Position numbers and translations under genes: made by a program
Notes under the pieces: model-generated
Told to the model about the DNA's origin: nothing
The model's database searches: none
Seen by the model: the letters and a program-made list of their open reading frames with translations, nothing else
Shown: positions 15,941 through 24,848 of the stretch, in pieces
How the letters are laid out: the number at the start of each line of letters is the position of its first letter
How positions within the stretch are numbered: position 1 is the first letter of the stretch
Assembly (NCBI GenBank): GCA_945860245.1
Contig: CAMAPO010000007.1
Coordinates: 1 to 60,499 of the forward strand
Length of the DNA stretch: 60,499 nucleotides
Direction of reading: 5' to 3'
Source of the DNA: Bifidobacterium breve
GTDB taxonomy: Bacteria > Actinomycetota > Actinomycetes > Nanopelagicales > Nanopelagicaceae

Positions 15941-17778
15941 CGCTTCTTTTCACTTGCCTGTGCAACTTTAACTTCAGAATCTTGGTTTTGCTTCTTAAGC
16001 AATTCCCTCTGCGTTAGCGCTACTGGCAGAACCTTGGTTCCTGTTGGAGCGACATGTTCGGATTGAAGAACGAAAGTCATAACCTTTTTAAAGACTGGGC
16101 CACCTAGTGAGCCGCCATAATAAGCGCCTTTAGGATCTTGAATAGTTACACTTATTACATACTTCGGCGCATCTGCAGGTGCAAAGCCGATAAAGGATGC
16201 CGTGTAACCGCTATAGCAAGCACAATCTGAGTTGTGGCGCATTGCAGTACCAGTTTTACCAGCAACTCGATAACCCGGAATCGCAGCACTAGGCGCAGTA
16301 CCTTGCCCCGACACAACTGACTCCATCATTATCCGTAATTGCTTGGCGGTCTCAGCGCTGATAACTCGCTCATTGAAGCGAGATACAGAAGCGGTGTACC
16401 TTCCTGATGAATCAGTTGTTCCGGCGATCACGGTTGGGGAAACTCGGACGCCATTATTAGCAATCGTTGCGAAGATACTTGTGGCCTGCATCGCCGTTAA
16501 CGCATAACCTTGACCAAATGCCACAGTTGGAGCGGTGGTTCCAGACCAATCGCTGACGGGCCGGAAGAGCCCGGCAGATTCACCAGGTAAACCTGACCCA
16601 GTGGATTTTCCAATTCCAAATTTAGATAGATAGTCGTGCAAAGTATCATTAGATAACATCTCACCAATTTTTATCGTTCCTGTGTTGGATGAGACTGCCA
16701 AGATTCCTGAAGTTGTTAAATACTGAACAGGATGAGGATCGTGATCGCGGAAAGTATCTCCACCGCGTTTGATTGAGTAAGGGACTTTCAAAACCGTTTC
16801 TGGAGTGATCTTCTTCTCTTCCAGCGCTGCTGCCAGAGTCATAACTTTTCCAGTCGATCCTGGCTCATAGACATCTTGCACCGATGGATTGCGCATTTGC
16901 GCTTCTGTGACTTTCTTAGTGTTATTTGGGTCAAAAGTCGGCGCAGTTGCATGTGCCAAGATCTGTCCTGTTTTGGGATCCATAACGATAACGGTGCCAC
17001 TTGAGGCGCGAGCTTTTCTTACCGCTTCTTGAATTGCATTTGCTGCGACCCATTGCACGTCGCGATCAATGGTCAATCGAATAGTTGTTCCTTTTTTGGC
17101 GGCAATTATCTCGTTTTGTGATCCAGGAATTTCCGCTCCTAAGCCACGCGCGTATGAATATCGGCCATCGGTGCCAGTGATTGTGGAGTTCATACTTGAT
17201 TCAATTCCGGTTGCGCCAATGCCGTCTTGGCGCACAAAACCAACCAGCGATGAAACTAGAGAACCGGATGGATATTCGCGGATGTAATTTCTCTCAGAAA
17301 AGAAACCAACAATTCTTTTGTCAAAGTTCTCTTTGCTCAATGATGCGTTAAATGAGTCAATTGCGGCGCTTAGATCACGCCAAACTGCCGGTTTAGCGCT
17401 CCTTGTAACCAATGCGTAACGCTTGGTTCCTGTGATTGCGCTCTGAACTTGTGCCACCGTCATACCCAGATAAGGAGCAGCAAAGTTAGCTGTCCTACCT
17501 GCATCGGTAATTAAAGTCTGATCAACCACAATATTTATCGCAGAGACGCTACGGGCGAAAGCTATTCCATTGATATCGGTAATTTCACCCCGCGCTGCTG
17601 GAATTCCACGAGTTAATTTCATCTCATTCGCAGCTTTAGCGCGATAATCGCTGGCCTGAACGGCTTGAATTTGAATGAGTCGGGCGGCAAATAACAGGAA
17701 GAATATAAAGATAAAAATAACTAGAGCGCGGATTCTAGAAGTGGCGAGATTTAAATTACCCACGTTTGATCTCTCCAT
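15937..17778 (-). CDS. ftsI: Septal penicillin-binding protein FtsI (PBP3)
   Basis: FtsI is the class B transpeptidase that crosslinks septal peptidoglycan with FtsW. The 613-residue protein has a short cytoplasmic end, one membrane segment (about residues 16-36), the dimerisation domain (RGEITDINGIAFA), and the transpeptidase motifs SxxK in EPGSTGKV, SxN in SSNTG and KTG in VAGKTGTA. The annotated ATG at 17778 overlaps ftsL by 23 nt. A GTG at 17763 lies 7 nt after GGAGAG and is an equally good or better start. No PASTA domain is present at the C-terminus. Confidence 0.95.
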   Translation of the reverse strand: MERSNVGNLNLATSRIRALVIFIFIFFLLFAARLIQIQAVQASDYRAKAANEMKLTRGIPAARGEITDINGIAFARSVSAINIVVDQTLITDAGRTANFAAPYLGMTVAQVQSAITGTKRYALVTRSAKPAVWRDLSAAIDSFNASLSKENFDKRIVGFFSERNYIREYPSGSLVSSLVGFVRQDGIGATGIESSMNSTITGTDGRYSYARGLGAEIPGSQNEIIAAKKGTTIRLTIDRDVQWVAANAIQEAVRKARASSGTVIVMDPKTGQILAHATAPTFDPNNTKKVTEAQMRNPSVQDVYEPGSTGKVMTLAAALEEKKITPETVLKVPYSIKRGGDTFRDHDPHPVQYLTTSGILAVSSNTGTIKIGEMLSNDTLHDYLSKFGIGKSTGSGLPGESAGLFRPVSDWSGTTAPTVAFGQGYALTAMQATSIFATIANNGVRVSPTVIAGTTDSSGRYTASVSRFNERVISAETAKQLRIMMESVVSGQGTAPSAAIPGYRVAGKTGTAMRHNSDCACYSGYTASFIGFAPADAPKYVISVTIQDPKGAYYGGSLGGPVFKKVMTFVLQSEHVAPTGTKVLPVALTQRELLKKQNQDSEVKVAQASEKKR

Positions 17779-18175
17779 TTGCTAAGGCCTGCTCTGCCGC
17801 ATCCAAATTAAGGAAAACCAGCGAATTTGAGGGACGCATTCCTAGCGATTGCGCCTTAGCTGCTAAAGCTTCTGGAGATGAGGCAGCTTCGATCTGGCGG
17901 TTAATTGCTTCGCGTTGATCTGCTACAACTTTTGCTTCGGCTTTTAATTCAGAAAGCGTAAAAGCATCTTGCGCCAAGAGAATATTTACGGCAAGCAGTA
18001 TCAGTAGCCCAACTCCTGCAACTGCTGATAGGAAAGTTGCAAAGAATCGATGAGTTGCTTGTGTTCCTTCTGAAACACTTGGTACTAATTTTAGAAATAC
18101 TTGAACTGATTTTTCTGTGATTTTTTGAAACGGCACACGAGGCGCTTTTATCGCAGTTGAATTTAGAAGCGCCAT
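17756..18175 (-). CDS. ftsL: FtsL-type septum protein
   Basis: A small bitopic protein between rsmH and ftsI, the constant place of ftsL. The 139 residues comprise about 45 cytoplasmic residues, one membrane segment (FLSAVAGVGLLILLAVNILLA in part) and a coiled-coil-like extracytoplasmic region (ELKAEAKVVADQREAINRQIEAA in part). It ends with LGMRPSNSLVFLNL, a motif shared by actinobacterial FtsL proteins. Sequence conservation of FtsL is low, so the call rests on topology and position. It starts directly after the rsmH stop. Confidence 0.85.
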   Translation of the reverse strand: MALLNSTAIKAPRVPFQKITEKSVQVFLKLVPSVSEGTQATHRFFATFLSAVAGVGLLILLAVNILLAQDAFTLSELKAEAKVVADQREAINRQIEAASSPEALAAKAQSLGMRPSNSLVFLNLDAAEQALANGEIKRG

Positions 18176-19132
18176 TTATGCCGCCACCTTTTCAATTGCA
18201 CGCAGACGCACGGAGGCTGAACGCGGATTCGTCGCTAACTCTTGATCTGATGGTGTTTCTCCAGATTTTGAAACAAGGGCAAATTTGGCGGCAAATTCTG
18301 GAAGGTCAACTGGCAAATTTCTTGGACTCTTAGAAGTTGATCTTTCAACGAATATCTCTTTAACAATGCGATCTTCTAGTGACTGGAAGGAGAGAACAAC
18401 TACACGCCCTCCGATAGTTAACAGATCCAGCGCAATCGGCAGAGCGCGAGTAATCGCTCCGAGCTCATCATTTGCTTCGATACGTAGCGCCTGGAAAGTG
18501 CGCTTCGCCGGATTTCCTCCAGTGCGACGCGTTGCGGCAGGAATACTCTCTTTAACTAATGCAGCTAATTCTTGTGTTGAGTTAAGCGGGGCTTTCGCGC
18601 GTGCTTTTACTATGTTTTCAACAATGCGGGTTGCAAATTTCTCTTCACCAAATGTGCGCAATATCTTTACCAGCGCACCGGGTGCATAGGTATTAACGAT
18701 CTCTGATGCCGTGATTCCACGGCTGCGATCCATTCGCATATCAAGTGGTGCATCTTGGGAGTAAGAAAAGCCGCGATCGACTTCATCTAGTTGCATTGAA
18801 GAGACTCCAAGGTCAAATAAGATGCCATTTACTTCGTTAATTCCATGCGCTGCAGCCACTTCACCAAGCTGATCAAAGATCGCGTGTGCACTCTTGAAGC
18901 GATCACCAAAGCGAGCAAGTCGTGCACCGGCACGGTCGAGTGCGATCTGATCGCGGTCAATTCCAATTACGGTAAGAGATGGGAATTTTTCAAGAAGTGC
19001 TTCGGTATGGCCGCCTAAACCAAGAGTGCAATCAATGATTACTGGTTTTTTATTTAGCAAGATAGTTGGAGAAAGTAGTTCAATGCAACGTTCTAGCATT
19101 ACAGATATATGTTGCGCACTTGCATTGTTCAT
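18176..19132 (-). CDS. rsmH: 16S rRNA (cytosine1402-N4)-methyltransferase RsmH (MraW)
   Basis: RsmH methylates N4 of C1402 in the decoding region of 16S rRNA. The 318-residue protein shows HISVMLERCIELL, the SAM motif DCTLGLGGHTEALL, GIDRDQIAL, FDLGVSSMQLD, RGFSYSQDAPLDMRMD and VLSFQSLEDRIVK, which together are diagnostic. Its leader contains the structured mraW-type RNA and an AT-rich stretch with GGGGGAG before ATG 19132. It is followed immediately by ftsL. Confidence 0.97.
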   Translation of the reverse strand: MNNASAQHISVMLERCIELLSPTILLNKKPVIIDCTLGLGGHTEALLEKFPSLTVIGIDRDQIALDRAGARLARFGDRFKSAHAIFDQLGEVAAAHGINEVNGILFDLGVSSMQLDEVDRGFSYSQDAPLDMRMDRSRGITASEIVNTYAPGALVKILRTFGEEKFATRIVENIVKARAKAPLNSTQELAALVKESIPAATRRTGGNPAKRTFQALRIEANDELGAITRALPIALDLLTIGGRVVVLSFQSLEDRIVKEIFVERSTSKSPRNLPVDLPEFAAKFALVSKSGETPSDQELATNPRSASVRLRAIEKVAA

Positions 19133-19185
19133 CTACTCCCCCATTTCCTTATCTTGTTAATTTAATTGTTAACTCTTTTTTAACT

Positions 19186-19291
19186 CATCTCTCATCTCTG
19201 GTCACCGCCGGCCGACGGATCTAACGAAAGTGACACCGGGGAAGGGGTGTCACTGCCGGCTTTAGGTCGGCGGTGGCCACAAATGAGAGCG
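19186..19291 (-). ncRNA. mraW-type structured leader RNA between mraZ and rsmH
   Basis: The minus-strand transcript has a long outer stem: the arms at about 19266-19289 and 19189-19216 share CTCTCAT..TGG.CACCGCC..CGAC complementarity. Inside is a perfect 9-bp hairpin, AGTGACACC (19229-19237) with GGTGTCACT (19246-19254), closing a loop that reads CCTTCCCC in the RNA. A self-complementary GCCGGC occurs on both sides (19207-19212, 19255-19260), so alternative pairing is possible. The element is much more GC-rich than its flanks and ends about 57 nt before the rsmH start. An mraW RNA motif at exactly this place is known from Actinobacteria as a predicted cis-regulator. I identify it by position and architecture, not by a covariance search. 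Confidence 0.8.
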
Positions 19292-19315
19292 CTATTAAGT
19301 TTTTATTTAGTTGTT

Positions 19316-19747
19316 TTAAAAGAGGCCAGGAAAGATCTCCTCTGAAACTTCAGCAAAACCCTTTTCGCGATCTGATAGGTATGAATTCCAAGAAGTGCTA
19401 TCCCAAATTTCAACGCGCGTATTTGCACCGATAACAACGCAATCTTTTTCAAGTCCGGCATATGTGCGAAGCCCCGCAGGAATAGTTACGCGACCTTGGC
19501 GATCAGGAATTTCATCGTGCGCGCCAGCAAACATCACGCGCATGTAATCGCGCGCATTCTTTGATGTAACCGGTGCTTGGCGCAGAGTTTCAGTGATAGT
19601 TGCAAATTCAGTAGATGGAAAGACGTACAAGCAACGCTCTTGTCCTTTGGTAATTACCAAACCAGCGGAGAGCTCTTCGCGAAATTTCGCAGGAAGGATT
19701 AAACGGCCTTTTTCATCAAGGCGCGGCTCGTGGGTGCCAAGAAACAT
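19316..19747 (-). CDS. mraZ: Transcriptional regulator MraZ
   Basis: MraZ is an AbrB-fold DNA-binding protein that forms ring oligomers and autoregulates the dcw operon by binding repeated TGGGN boxes. The 143-residue protein has two SpoVT/AbrB-like halves with the conserved motifs [21 protein letters not shown] (in part) and [17 protein letters not shown]. It is the first gene of the dcw cluster. A 10-bp-period array of matching boxes lies 53-130 nt upstream, which supports autoregulation in this organism. Confidence 0.96.
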
Positions 19748-19799
19748 CTCTTCTGGCCCCCTTCCCCAGGTTCCAGCGCGGGAGATCCCGCTTAATCCC

Positions 19800-19874
19800 C
19801 CACTTTACTCCACTTTCCTCCTTTTTCAACCACCTATCACCACTTATCTCCCATCACAGCCCCAGCGCTCCCCA
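19800..19874 (-). promoter_or_regulatory. Predicted MraZ operator: 10-bp-period TGGG/GTGG box array
   Basis: On the minus strand GTGG occurs with its complement CCAC at 19800, 19810, 19830 and 19840, and TGGG or GGGG-type boxes at 19850, 19860 and 19870. Only the 19820 position is degenerate. The strict 10-bp period puts all boxes on one face of the helix. Known MraZ operators are TGGGN repeats separated by 5 nt, the same period. The array lies 53-127 nt upstream of the mraZ start. A promoter is expected here but I cannot place its -10 with confidence. Confidence 0.8.
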
Positions 19875-19889
19875 CCAGTTTTTCGGCAT

Positions 19890-19917
19890 AAAAAAAGCCC
19901 CCGCCGGTAGCGAGGGC
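19890..19917 (-). terminator. Rho-independent terminator of the DUF3040 gene
   Basis: The minus strand reads GCCCTCGC, a 5-nt loop, GCGGGGGC, then seven T residues. The stem is 8 bp with one G-U pair. It lies 19 nt after the stop of the DUF3040 gene and separates it from the mraZ promoter region. Confidence 0.88.
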
Positions 19918-19935
19918 AAGAATTGGGTTGTGGCG

Positions 19936-20307
19936 TCAGCCGTTATTTCGTTGATCCCAACGATCTTCCATCCCTTTAGTAAAGCCCTTGGTAAATGAGC
20001 GGCGAGCGCGCTTAGGAGACCCACCAACCAGACCGAGCTTGGATTTACTCCGAGTCAAACTGTTGATCAGCAGGATCACGCCAACCAGGGCAACTAAGAA
20101 GCCACTTACCCCGACGAGCGTCATCTGAGCGATGAGGCCGGCAAATAGGATGGCGAAGCCACCGAGCAAGGCAGCGATGGCGATACCGATAGATGCGCTA
20201 AATCGTGAAGTTGCACCGCTTAACGTTGAGACAAGGCGCGGGTCATCAGCAGATAACGCCTCTTCCATCTCGGCAAGTAAGCGTTGTTCGCGATCAGAAA
20301 GTGCCAT
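19936..20307 (-). CDS. DUF3040 family membrane protein
   Basis: A 123-residue protein of the actinobacteria-specific DUF3040 family, function unknown. The start at ATG 20307 gives the conserved N-terminus MALSDREQRLLAEMEEAL, so I prefer it to the longer frame from 20370. After this amphipathic N-terminal helix come two membrane segments (about residues 41-84) and a basic tail with KRARRSFTKGFTKGMEDRW. DUF3040 genes commonly sit next to dinB or mraZ in actinobacteria. The gene is 75 nt downstream of dinB and ends in a clear terminator, so it may share the SOS transcript or have its own promoter. Confidence 0.85.
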   Translation of the reverse strand: MALSDREQRLLAEMEEALSADDPRLVSTLSGATSRFSASIGIAIAALLGGFAILFAGLIAQMTLVGVSGFLVALVGVILLINSLTRSKSKLGLVGGSPKRARRSFTKGFTKGMEDRWDQRNNG

Positions 20308-20382
20308 ATCCCCACAATAGAACATCTTTGCGCCAAGGGCTAGTTGATTGCCCGCCCTCTTTAATCTCACCTTACTCTCACC

Positions 20383-21567
20383 TTAATCTCCGTGCTCTTC
20401 TTCCTGATCCCCTGGCTTTATTAAGCGCCCCGGGCGAACGCTGCCACGCCCAAAACGCGCTTTCGCCTGATCTATCGCACTTTCAGCTTCTCGCCAACCC
20501 TTTTCGCGCGCCCCTAGGACTAGTTGTTCTGGTGAATCTTCCTGCAGGTTCTCAAGTGAGACTCCGACTAAACGCAGCCGCGCGCGCTCGATCTTTAGGG
20601 CCAGATAGAGCGACTTAACTACTTCATATACCTCGTGCGTGCTGTCAATTGGAAGCGGCAAGGTTTTCGAGCGATTGATAGTTGAGAAATCTGCAAAGCG
20701 CACCTTGATTGAGATCGTCTTGGCAAATAAACCTTTCTCGCGCAATCGTGCTGTCGACTTTTCAGTCATACGCAGAAACTCTTGCAAGATTTCAATTGGG
20801 TTATCTAGATCATTGGGAAATGTTTCGGCTGCGGAAATACTTTTATCTGGCTCCTCCGGTGTTACATCGCGATAATCGCGCCCCCAGGCAAGTTCATATA
20901 AAGATGCACCGGAAGCATCACCGAGTGCACGAATCAAAGTAGCGCGCGGAGTATTTGCGATATCAGCCACCGTATGAAGTCCGAGTCTTTCCAGTTGCTC
21001 AGCGGTCTTTGGGCCAACTCCCCAGATTACGCCAACCGGAAGTGGATGCAGAAAGGTGAGAATGCGATCGGCGGTTATCTCAAGCATGCCATTTGGTTTG
21101 CAATTTTGGGATGCCAACTTGGCAATGAATTTTGATGGTGCAATTCCCACCGAACAAGTGATGCCTTCCTCTTTCTCAACACGGGCACGAATAGCAGTTG
21201 CGATCTCGCGGCCGGTGCCGAGTAATTTACGGGCACCGGTCACATCAAGAAAGGCTTCATCAAGTGAGATCGGTTCAACTAACGGTGTGTATGCAGCAAA
21301 AATCTGCATGACACGTTCTGAAATTTCTGAATATCGGTGATGATCAGGTGCAATAAAGATCGCTTGTGGCGCCATTCTCTGAGCACGACCCACAGGCATC
21401 GCAGCGCGAATGCCAAATTTGCGAGCGGCATAGTTTGCAGATAAGACAACGCCACGTGCACCTGCGCCAACGACAACTGCTTTGCCGCGAAGTTCGGGGT
21501 GATCGAGTTCGGCAACAGATGCGTAGAAAGCATCCATATCAACGTGCAGAATCGTGGCCTGCGTCAT
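20383..21567 (-). CDS. dinB: DNA polymerase IV (Y-family, DinB)
   Basis: DinB is an error-prone translesion polymerase. The start at ATG 21567 overlaps the dnaE2 stop by 4 nt and gives the family N-terminus ILHVDMDAFYASVAEL. Catalytic acidic residues are present in DMDAFYASV and in SLDEAFLDV, so this is an active polymerase and not the catalytically dead ImuB found beside dnaE2 in many bacteria. Other motifs are YAARKFGIRAAMP, SVGIAPSKFIAKLAS, a helix-hairpin-helix region with GVGPKTAEQLERLG, and a little-finger domain. The 394-residue length is normal. It is probably cotranscribed with the DUF6504 gene and dnaE2 under LexA control. Confidence 0.95.
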   Translation of the reverse strand: MTQATILHVDMDAFYASVAELDHPELRGKAVVVGAGARGVVLSANYAARKFGIRAAMPVGRAQRMAPQAIFIAPDHHRYSEISERVMQIFAAYTPLVEPISLDEAFLDVTGARKLLGTGREIATAIRARVEKEEGITCSVGIAPSKFIAKLASQNCKPNGMLEITADRILTFLHPLPVGVIWGVGPKTAEQLERLGLHTVADIANTPRATLIRALGDASGASLYELAWGRDYRDVTPEEPDKSISAAETFPNDLDNPIEILQEFLRMTEKSTARLREKGLFAKTISIKVRFADFSTINRSKTLPLPIDSTHEVYEVVKSLYLALKIERARLRLVGVSLENLQEDSPEQLVLGAREKGWREAESAIDQAKARFGRGSVRPGRLIKPGDQEEEHGD

Positions 21568-24500
21568 CTCTGCATCGCTTGCTGTACTAATTGGCGCGAC
21601 CATTTTTCATAAGCTGCACGTAGATCCCAAGCCCCGTTGGCGTTGATAGAGATGCCGCGATCACCGGTTCTACGAGTTTTGCCACGGACTAACAATATGG
21701 ATGAACTGTAGAGAGTGGAAGCAAATCCCTCTTGGGCATCAGAGAAAAATGTGGAATCAGTACATCCATAACCATCATCGAGAGTTAAGAAGATTACGCG
21801 CCGCCCCGAACGCACTGGTGGGGTCTGCATCGCGACTTTAATTCCTGCCACAAGTACTTCACTCTGAGATCGCAGCGAAAGTAAATCCGATGATTTAACA
21901 GCGCCGATCGCATTTAGGAATGGCGCATAGAACTCGAGCATATGGTGGCTGATATCCATTCCTAAACGCTCTACTTCGTTGCGCACCTTTTCAGCAGCGC
22001 CCATCGCAGGCAAACCACTTGCTTCAACATCAGGGGGTGCAAAGCCAAAGACCATCTGGGACCCGCCAATATTGGCAACCGGGGAGCGAGTTAAATCAGA
22101 TAAGTGGAGTAATAAATCACGGTGATTTATCACGCCATCTTTTAGTGAATGCACTTGGTCAAGGGCACCGGTCATAATTAAAGTTTCGATAACTGGATGC
22201 GATGCCCCTGATCTGCGATAGAAATCAGCGAGGTCAAGATAGGGACGGCCCGCGATTATCGAAGCGACTTCTTTATCGCTGATTCCTGAGACTGAAGTAA
22301 GCGCGATCCGCACGCTCTCACCGCCACCCTTATCTCTTTCTACTGTGTATTGACTGCCTGAAAAATTAATATCAAGTGGCGCTAAACCAACTCCAAGTTG
22401 GCGCGCTTCATCAATCATTAAACGTTTCGGGTACATACCTGGATCATGAGTTAAAACACCTGCGATAAATGCTGCAGGGTAATGAGTTTTTAAGTAAGCA
22501 GATTGATATGTAGGAAGTGCGAAAGCTGCCGCATGTGCTTTACAGAAACCAAAAGATGCAAAGGCGCGAAGGACCTCCCAGATTTCAGTAATCGTGATCA
22601 ACTCATAACCGCGCGCTGTGGCGGAAGGAAAGAACCAATCGCAGACTTCTTGTTGGCCTTCCTTGCTGCCTAAAGCGCGCCGTTTTTCATCGGCAGCGGC
22701 AAGTGAGATACCAGTCATCACCGCGATAATCGAGATAACTTGTTCGTGAAAGACCACCACGCCTTCGGTCTGCGCCAAGATCGAATAAAGATCAGGGTGG
22801 ATTATCTGCGCCTTGGTCCAGCCGTGGCGAGCGTTAAGAAATGGCCTGATCATGTCACTTTTAACTGGGCCAGGGCGAAAGAGTGAGATATCGATAATTA
22901 AATCGCTAAAAGTTTTCGGCGCTAACTTTCCGACTAGTTCACGTTGTCCGGGGCTTTCTACTTGGAAGATACCTAAGGTGCGCGTTGATTGGATTAACTC
23001 GTAAGTTGCGGCGTCATCAAGTGGCACAGCATCGATATCTAAATCAATATCAGCAACGCGTTTTATCTCGTGCACTGCATGGGCGATTGTCGATTGCATC
23101 CGCACGCCCAAAATATCTAGCTTTAATAACCCAATTTCTTCTACGCCATCTTTATCAAATTCCACCATTGGATAACCACTGGCGTTAAATTGAACTGGCG
23201 CGCGATCTAATAGCCCAGCATCAGATAAAACAACTGCGCAAGGGTGCATCGCTAAATGGCGTGGCAATCCATCTAGGCGCTGTGCCAGCGAAATCGCCAT
23301 CACGGTAAGGGGCGCAGATAAGTTAAGTGAGCGAAGTTCGGGAAGTGATTTAAGGGTTGCCTCAATATTACGGGCGCGGATATGCGGCAGAGATTTAGCG
23401 ATTAGGTCTATCTCCATCGCCGGCAACCCAAGTGCTGCGCCAACATCGCGGATTGCATTTCGCGCGCGGTAGGTGTCGACCATGGAAACAGTTGCACAAC
23501 GCGAAAGTGCTTGTGGCGATCGCCAATCAGTATCGCCATATCTTTTAAAGACCAGGTCATAGATTTCTAAGCGGCGCGCAGATTCCACATCTATATCAAT
23601 ATCAGGAAGCGCCCTGCGCAGTGGTGAACAGAAACGCTCCATCAATAAACCGTGTTGCATCGGATCAACTCCTGAAATACCAAGCAAATGACAGATCAGT
23701 GAACCGGCACCACTGCCACGTGCTGCCACCCGAATATTTTTCTCCCGCGCCATACCGGTGATATCGGCAACGGTTAAGAAATATGGTTCGTATCCCAGTG
23801 TTGCAACGGTGGCGAGCTCATCATCTAGCCGTGCACGAGCTTTATTGATTGTGGCTGAATCGTTGTAGCGCCAATTAATTCCGGATTCACAGCGTGTGCG
23901 CAGCAAGGTGCGCATCGCACTTGCCGAATCTGCCCCGACTATATGGGCCTCAGGTAGGTGAATTCCTCCTAAACCAAGATCGCGTTGTGGGGAAAGAAGT
24001 GCGCGCTCGGCCCATTGGCGGGTGGTGTTTAAAAGATCGCGTGGAGTGCGTTCTCCGGCGGCGCGGGCAATTTCAGCAGCGAGTGAAGCCATCTGATCAC
24101 TCGATTTTAAATAACCTTCGGCATTGCGCCGTTCCAGATGGCGTTGATGTAACGGAACTAATTGGCGGGCGCAATCTAAAATATCGGCAACTGGTCCATC
24201 TGCCGCATCGCACATCCGCACCGCATTTGTGATTACCGCATCGATATCGTGATCGCGGGCGAAGATAAGTGAGCGAGCAGCATGTCCAGTTGAGAATGGG
24301 CCGTTGCCCGCAACTAAGTGCGATACGCAATCTATTGCTTGATCGCCAAAGAGTGACCGGGTCTTATTAAATATATCAAGTGCGATATCAATACGGTGTA
24401 GCGCTAGCGCTTGGCTAACTGGTGATTCTGGGCCATGCAGTAAATGCAATTGGGTTGAATATTGGCTAAAGCGTTGCAAGAAATCTAAAGTCAGAATCGG

Positions 24501-24848
24501 TGTGCGATCGGCGGCATTCATATTAAGGCCACTTAATAAACGCACCAGCGCGCGCCATCCCCCATCGCCGTGGGCCAAGATAGTCACACGTGGTAAATCT
24601 TTAGCGGGCACACTTTTAAGATTTGGATCAGCTAATAAATCAATAGCCAGGTTTATTCCAATAATTGGAGCGATACCAAATTCCAGACAAGCGCTAGCAA
24701 AACGGATCGCACCTGATAAGCCATCGCGATCGGTGAGGGCGAGCGCCGGTGATTCAAATTGCGCAGCGCGTTCTACAAGATCACGTGGTTGGGTGGTGCC
24801 GTATTTAAGTGAGAAAGCACTTGATGTCCGTAAATGTATGAAGCTCAT
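21564..24848 (-). CDS. dnaE2: Error-prone DNA polymerase III alpha subunit DnaE2
   Basis: DnaE2 is the non-essential C-family polymerase used for damage-induced mutagenesis. The 1094-residue protein begins with a PHP domain (FIHLRTSSAFSLKYG). The palm carries the catalytic motifs LPDIDIDVE and GLLKLDILGVRM, followed by SIIAVMTGIS-type finger sequence, FGFCKAHAAAFALPTYQSAYLK, a helix-hairpin-helix region, and a C-terminal OB fold. It is shorter than the replicative DnaE1 and sits in an operon with dinB, which supports DnaE2. The first PHP metal motif (HxH) is altered to HLR, so PHP exonuclease activity is doubtful. An 11-bp repeat fills the gap from the DUF6504 gene. Confidence 0.95.
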   Translation of the reverse strand: MSFIHLRTSSAFSLKYGTTQPRDLVERAAQFESPALALTDRDGLSGAIRFASACLEFGIAPIIGINLAIDLLADPNLKSVPAKDLPRVTILAHGDGGWRALVRLLSGLNMNAADRTPILTLDFLQRFSQYSTQLHLLHGPESPVSQALALHRIDIALDIFNKTRSLFGDQAIDCVSHLVAGNGPFSTGHAARSLIFARDHDIDAVITNAVRMCDAADGPVADILDCARQLVPLHQRHLERRNAEGYLKSSDQMASLAAEIARAAGERTPRDLLNTTRQWAERALLSPQRDLGLGGIHLPEAHIVGADSASAMRTLLRTRCESGINWRYNDSATINKARARLDDELATVATLGYEPYFLTVADITGMAREKNIRVAARGSGAGSLICHLLGISGVDPMQHGLLMERFCSPLRRALPDIDIDVESARRLEIYDLVFKRYGDTDWRSPQALSRCATVSMVDTYRARNAIRDVGAALGLPAMEIDLIAKSLPHIRARNIEATLKSLPELRSLNLSAPLTVMAISLAQRLDGLPRHLAMHPCAVVLSDAGLLDRAPVQFNASGYPMVEFDKDGVEEIGLLKLDILGVRMQSTIAHAVHEIKRVADIDLDIDAVPLDDAATYELIQSTRTLGIFQVESPGQRELVGKLAPKTFSDLIIDISLFRPGPVKSDMIRPFLNARHGWTKAQIIHPDLYSILAQTEGVVVFHEQVISIIAVMTGISLAAADEKRRALGSKEGQQEVCDWFFPSATARGYELITITEIWEVLRAFASFGFCKAHAAAFALPTYQSAYLKTHYPAAFIAGVLTHDPGMYPKRLMIDEARQLGVGLAPLDINFSGSQYTVERDKGGGESVRIALTSVSGISDKEVASIIAGRPYLDLADFYRRSGASHPVIETLIMTGALDQVHSLKDGVINHRDLLLHLSDLTRSPVANIGGSQMVFGFAPPDVEASGLPAMGAAEKVRNEVERLGMDISHHMLEFYAPFLNAIGAVKSSDLLSLRSQSEVLVAGIKVAMQTPPVRSGRRVIFLTLDDGYGCTDSTFFSDAQEGFASTLYSSSILLVRGKTRRTGDRGISINANGAWDLRAAYEKWSRQLVQQAMQR

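Follow-up and report, generated by a model that had tools for sequence, protein, structure and literature searches.

The DNA segment preceding mraZ carries a conserved row of eight short boxes that appears to be a genuine MraZ operator of eight registers, with more boxes than the three or four that are customary and a position shifted upstream of the -10 element. The boxes (P1 to P8, Table 1) lie within the window, the whole stretch of 60,499 nucleotides that was analyzed. They are direct repeats with a consensus of about GTGGNG on the strand that runs in the direction of transcription, one of the eight being degenerate. The features expected of an MraZ operator, namely phased repeats on the same strand, a place in the dcw cluster just before mraZ, overlap with a promoter and conservation, are all found here. 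The nearest named relatives of the window are Candidatus Planktophila and other freshwater actinobacteria, and the window itself is Ca. Planktophila-like.

Counted by the common TGG, the steps of the array are 10, 11, 11, 10, 10, 10 and 10 bp, with a mean of 10.3 bp. A strict 10-bp phase, as claimed by the original prediction, is rejected because two of the steps measure 11 bp. That prediction had listed complements of the boxes at 10-bp intervals. CCAC is indeed found at 19800, 19810, 19830 and 19840 and CCCA at 19850, but the last two CCCA are located at 19861 and 19871, and not at 19860 and 19870. Since CCAC and CCCA are one base out of register, the mixed listing conceals the register shift. 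The position described as broken, 19820, carries AGG in place of TGG; its box is not absent, because GG is retained at this register (-20) in 96/96 relatives, so that it represents a weakened box instead of a missing one.

A chain of seven TGG, allowing one miss and steps of either 10 or 11 bp, was matched by none of 20000 dinucleotide shuffles of the 143-bp segment, and by 1 of 20000 when 9-bp steps were also allowed. Chance arising from a G-rich composition is rejected by these shuffles. A phase of strictly 10 bp gives only a weak signal: without a break the chain reaches 2, a length attained by 5274 of 20000 shuffles, and with one miss it reaches 4, attained by 53 of 20000. A scan of both strands of the 60-kb window revealed no chain longer than 4 outside the array, and the same method, applied to E. 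coli as a positive control, recovers the three boxes of that species, spaced exactly 10 bp apart. In a search of the genome, the core AAGTGGNNTAAAGTGG was matched without mismatches at the array alone; two mismatches yielded seven further matches, a total of 8 vs 9 in the backward control. A pattern of three strict GTGG gave no match in the genome, and this pattern would miss the mraZ array as well.

Table 1. Features of the mraZ upstream region. Registers are counted from P1, and fractions give the relatives that carry the triplet.
Feature	Coordinates	Strand	Details
mraZ, 143 aa	19316..19747	-	DXXXR twice (D11-R15, D82-R86)
Possible leader hairpin downstream of -10	19780..19801	-	ViennaRNA fold of 19801-19748
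Box P1 (AGTGGGGG)	19797..19804	-	TGG at 19802; overlaps -10 end; TGG 96/96, P1 being the anchor
-10 hexamer TAAAGT	19802..19807	-	Promoter scan; 16-bp spacer
Box P2 (AGTGGAGT)	19807..19814	-	TGG at 19812; in promoter spacer; register -10: NGG 96/96 (TGG 77, GGG 19)
Box P3, degenerate (AAAGGAGG)	19817..19824	-	AGG at 19822; register -20: NGG 96/96 (AGG 66, TGG 23, GGG 7)
-35 hexamer TTGAAA	19824..19829	-	Promoter scan, only match in 221 bp; shuffles mean 0.1
Box P4 (GGTGGTTG)	19827..19834	-	TGG at 19832; abuts -35; register -30: TGG 96/96
Box P5 (AGTGGTGA)	19837..19844	-	TGG at 19842; register -40: NGG 96/96, TGG 91/96
Box P6 (GATGGGAG)	19848..19855	-	TGG at 19853; register -50..-52: NGG 90/96, TGG 26/96
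Box P7 (GCTGGGGC)	19859..19866	-	TGG at 19864; register -60..-62: NGG 93/96, TGG 69/96
Box P8 (GGTGGGGA)	19869..19876	-	TGG at 19874; register -70..-73: NGG 75/96, TGG 61/96
Terminator of upstream DUF3040 gene	19897..19917	-	9-bp stem then T7
DUF3040 gene	19936-20313	-	Pfam PF11239

The protein encoded next to the array is a full member of the MraZ family by Pfam, NCBIfam and fold. It matches the family models PF02381 with 134.6 bits and TIGR00242 with 131.8 bits (cut-off 98.35), and its predicted monomer (mean pLDDT 86.4) shares the fold of MraZ from M. pneumoniae and M. genitalium with Z values of 18.7-20.9. Both copies of the DXXXR motif are kept, and D11, R15, D82 and R86 are invariant in an alignment of 28 sequences. 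Downstream on the minus strand, mraZ is followed by mraW/rsmH, ftsL (FtsL_Actino) and a penicillin-binding transpeptidase, and so stands in the dcw cluster. The intergenic region between mraZ and mraW (19178-19296, minus strand) aligns to the full 107-position model of the Rfam mraW RNA (RF01746) with 39.7 bits and an E-value of 1.1e-06, a score that falls under the curated gathering score of 50; at the gathering score, Rfam has no match within 17000-22000.

An independent scan predicts one sigma-70-like site, TTGAAA-16-TAAAGT at 19829-19802, inside the array. P1 overlaps the end of the predicted -10 element, P2 and P3 occupy the spacer, P4 abuts the -35 element and P5 through P8 lie upstream. 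The 16-bp spacer is kept in 18/18 anchored sequences of the family and in 35/37 of the class. The array begins about 20 bp past the terminator of the DUF3040 gene. Directly upstream of DUF3040 and mraZ are the genes for DNA polymerase IV and a DnaE-type error-prone polymerase (20383-24848, minus strand). Inverted repeats are seen by eye in many relatives near the site of the possible leader hairpin.

Relatives were drawn from genome searches at the genus, order and class levels and from a named-contig search. The resulting 131 loci were reduced to 96 distinct upstream regions, which take in sister genera of the same family, by dropping one with less than 60 bp upstream, six whose upstream part was too short, and exact duplicates over 180 bp. 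Anchoring was done on the box overlapping the -10 element, TA[AG]AGTGG, which is found in 96/96. With respect to this anchor, GG is present at -10, -20, -30 and -40 in all 96 relatives, and the distal registers are somewhat more variable (Table 1). The original prediction named relatives lacking the phased boxes as an outcome that would speak against it; the relatives have them, NGG occupying eight of eight registers in 69/96, seven in 24 and six in 3. The count of eight needs this looser NGG word, since only 10/96 have a chain with at least seven TGG. The distal boxes are frequently AGGG or GGGG instead of TGG, and thus their affinity may be low. Exactly one of P2 and P3 (19807-19824) departs from TGG in 88/96 relatives; this trade-off is suggestive, with two to three independent pairs scorable on average on the tree and a sign test that is not significant.

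A comparison with the class reveals a difference in the placement of the boxes relative to the promoter. Class sequences were anchored by TTG..TA..TGG, and not by GG at -10; 12/49 class, 2/20 family and 13/24 phylum sequences were left unanchored. As in the window, the typical actinomycete promoter reads TTGAC/TTGAAA-16-TANNGT and holds TGG boxes in the same register. Among the 37 anchored class sequences, TGG stands at -20, -10, 0 (the anchor) and +10 in 32, 37, 37 and 32, respectively; the -30 register holds it in 14 and the -40 register in 2. By contrast, the window has lost the +10 box (TGG in 0/96 of the genus set) and has added boxes from -30 to -72. The class-type site pattern with a +10 box was found in 66/246 genomes of the class, a number that includes some chance matches judged by their letters, as does the backward control, and in 0/26 of the window's own family.

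Long box arrays are not private to the Planktophila genus set. TGG chains of 7-9 also occur in seven genomes (L209, L210, L215 and L276-L280) of f18, a different family within the class. Chains of this length are present in 5/5 fetched stretches (L276-L280, of which L279 and L210 are one genome); those of L209 and L215 comprise 8 TGG. The f18 chains run from -62 (or from -30, where the contig is cut short) to +21 or +31; unlike the window, they extend both ways and keep the +10 box. In 14/49 class sequences a pair on the opposite strand, CCACN6CCAC, is located upstream, at -95 to -97 from P1 in eight of the 14; it is absent from the 20 family sequences, and could represent an additional MraZ site in inverted orientation.

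The operators of E. coli, the Mollicutes and B. cenocepacia are shorter. In E. coli, the direct GTGGG boxes are likewise on the coding strand beside mraZ at 10-bp spacing, but they are three in number and lie near the start codon, downstream of a -10 element whose position was read by eye, whereas those of the window run from the -10 upstream. According to the available part of one source, E. coli MraZ is an autorepressor acting on repeated boxes, and repeats have also been defined in mycoplasmas; the Mollicute operators combine MraZ with repeated boxes, AAAGTG[T/G] (PMC8475190). They have half as many boxes as the array described here. In B. cenocepacia, the MraZ-bound fragment of PmraBc contains, in the part of the source available, four 7-nt repeats with 3-nt spacers (PMC7761207), positioned downstream of the -10 and in this respect unlike the window. 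Two MraZ-DNA complexes of M. genitalium, 9sz7 and 9r4j, are known here by their titles, the former being titled '4 box promoter'. With four boxes as the class norm, three in the E. coli control and four in that title, the array is about twice as long as usual, in agreement with the original prediction, whose overall interpretation is partly supported. A literature search that covered few subscription papers returned nothing on Planktophila MraZ operators, nor on any array exceeding four boxes.

The proximal boxes are far better conserved than the distal ones among the 96 relatives, and an array of four boxes is the norm of the class. Both observations would suit an operator limited to the proximal four or five boxes, the distal G-rich boxes being leftover or neutral. 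We regard this as improbable, because the distal boxes hold the helical register across lineages. The stricter word NGGG fills the three distal registers in 82, 81 and 67 of 96 relatives vs 2-9 in three off-register control windows. In a register test on 73 representatives that are less than 75% alike in the upstream part, 173/219 distal NGGG registers are filled vs a shuffled mean of 56.7 and a maximum of 72. The spacing between TGG and TGG in these representatives is 10 bp in 40 pairs and 11 bp in 11 pairs, each other spacing from 5 to 16 accounting for at most 8, and all 40 TGGN7TGG pairs have their 3' member at -50..-52, -61..-62 or -72. The shuffles ignore shared descent, for which the scattered register changes on the tree allow in part. 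A FastTree tree was built with 130 genus and family rows that passed the length and duplicate filters, the anchor requiring GG at P2 and P4. The register of the 5'-most pair, present in 52 rows, changes about 14 times on this tree, with shifts of at least one whole turn; some of the changes reflect the gain of an extra box, not an indel. Leader length, measured between P1 and the start codon and used as a control, varies freely on the tree and is not quantised.

The distal boxes might alternatively be bound by another regulator than MraZ, such as an MtrA-like response regulator; MtrA binds a 100-bp fragment upstream of mraZ in Dietzia, according to the accessible part of the report (PMC9602371). 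Because the distal boxes have the TGG word, the orientation and the helical register of the core boxes, we consider the involvement of such a regulator very unlikely. Small, too, is the chance that MraZ activates the promoter instead of repressing it, or does both depending on dose. The loss of the +10 box that other actinomycetes have, and a row whose greater part lies upstream of the -35 element, would accommodate such a role, but P1 through P4 nonetheless overlap the -35 and -10 elements, E. coli MraZ is described as a repressor, and the M. genitalium mutant and the M. gallisepticum work point to control of the cluster in the portion of the source available (PMC8475190). Finally, a G-quadruplex formed by the G-runs and controlling the promoter, a mechanism claimed for S. 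aureus mraZ in the available part of PMC11796246, is hardly credible: although the distal boxes are G-rich and 31/96 relatives, vs 20% of shuffles, have a four-run motif when loops of at most 7 are allowed, the array sequence itself has no four-run motif (runs of three or more G) at a loop limit of either 7 or 12, the core boxes are GG and not GGG, and a quadruplex needs no 10-bp register.

The segment is thus best explained, with good probability, as an autorepression operator of eight boxes for MraZ. This reading is supported by the sequence, its conservation, the register constraint, the overlap with the predicted promoter and the genuine adjoining mraZ; binding of MraZ to all eight boxes, repression and stoichiometry are what we infer from it. 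The boxes form one direct repeat per helical turn along the transcription strand. P1 through P4 extend over the -10 element, the spacer and the upstream edge of the predicted -35 element, so that MraZ bound there would occlude RNA polymerase at the mraZ-mraW-ftsL-ftsI promoter. P5 through P8, which reach to about -79 from the likely start, lie on the same face of the DNA and probably increase affinity and cooperativity, either through additional subunits of the same ring or through a second one. The register lock of the distal boxes fits one continuous protein assembly on this face.

If the MraZ ring has eight members, the eight boxes, which span about 82 bp, could conceivably be read by one subunit each, with the DNA fully wrapped in a nucleosome-like repression complex. 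We consider this arrangement rather unlikely; if true, it would represent the wrap of a single ring, vs the half-ring contact made by a four-box site.

The E. coli operator is downstream of the -10 element, that of most sampled actinomycetes straddles it and that of Planktophila is upstream, which suggests that the position of the operator with respect to the promoter has shifted as lineages diverged. With this array, one protein family offers natural operators with three boxes, with four, and with eight or more, and the way in which an MraZ ring reads a row of boxes can be tested by shortening a natural array or altering its phase. The array also bears on the control of the main cell-division operon in abundant freshwater bacteria with small genomes.
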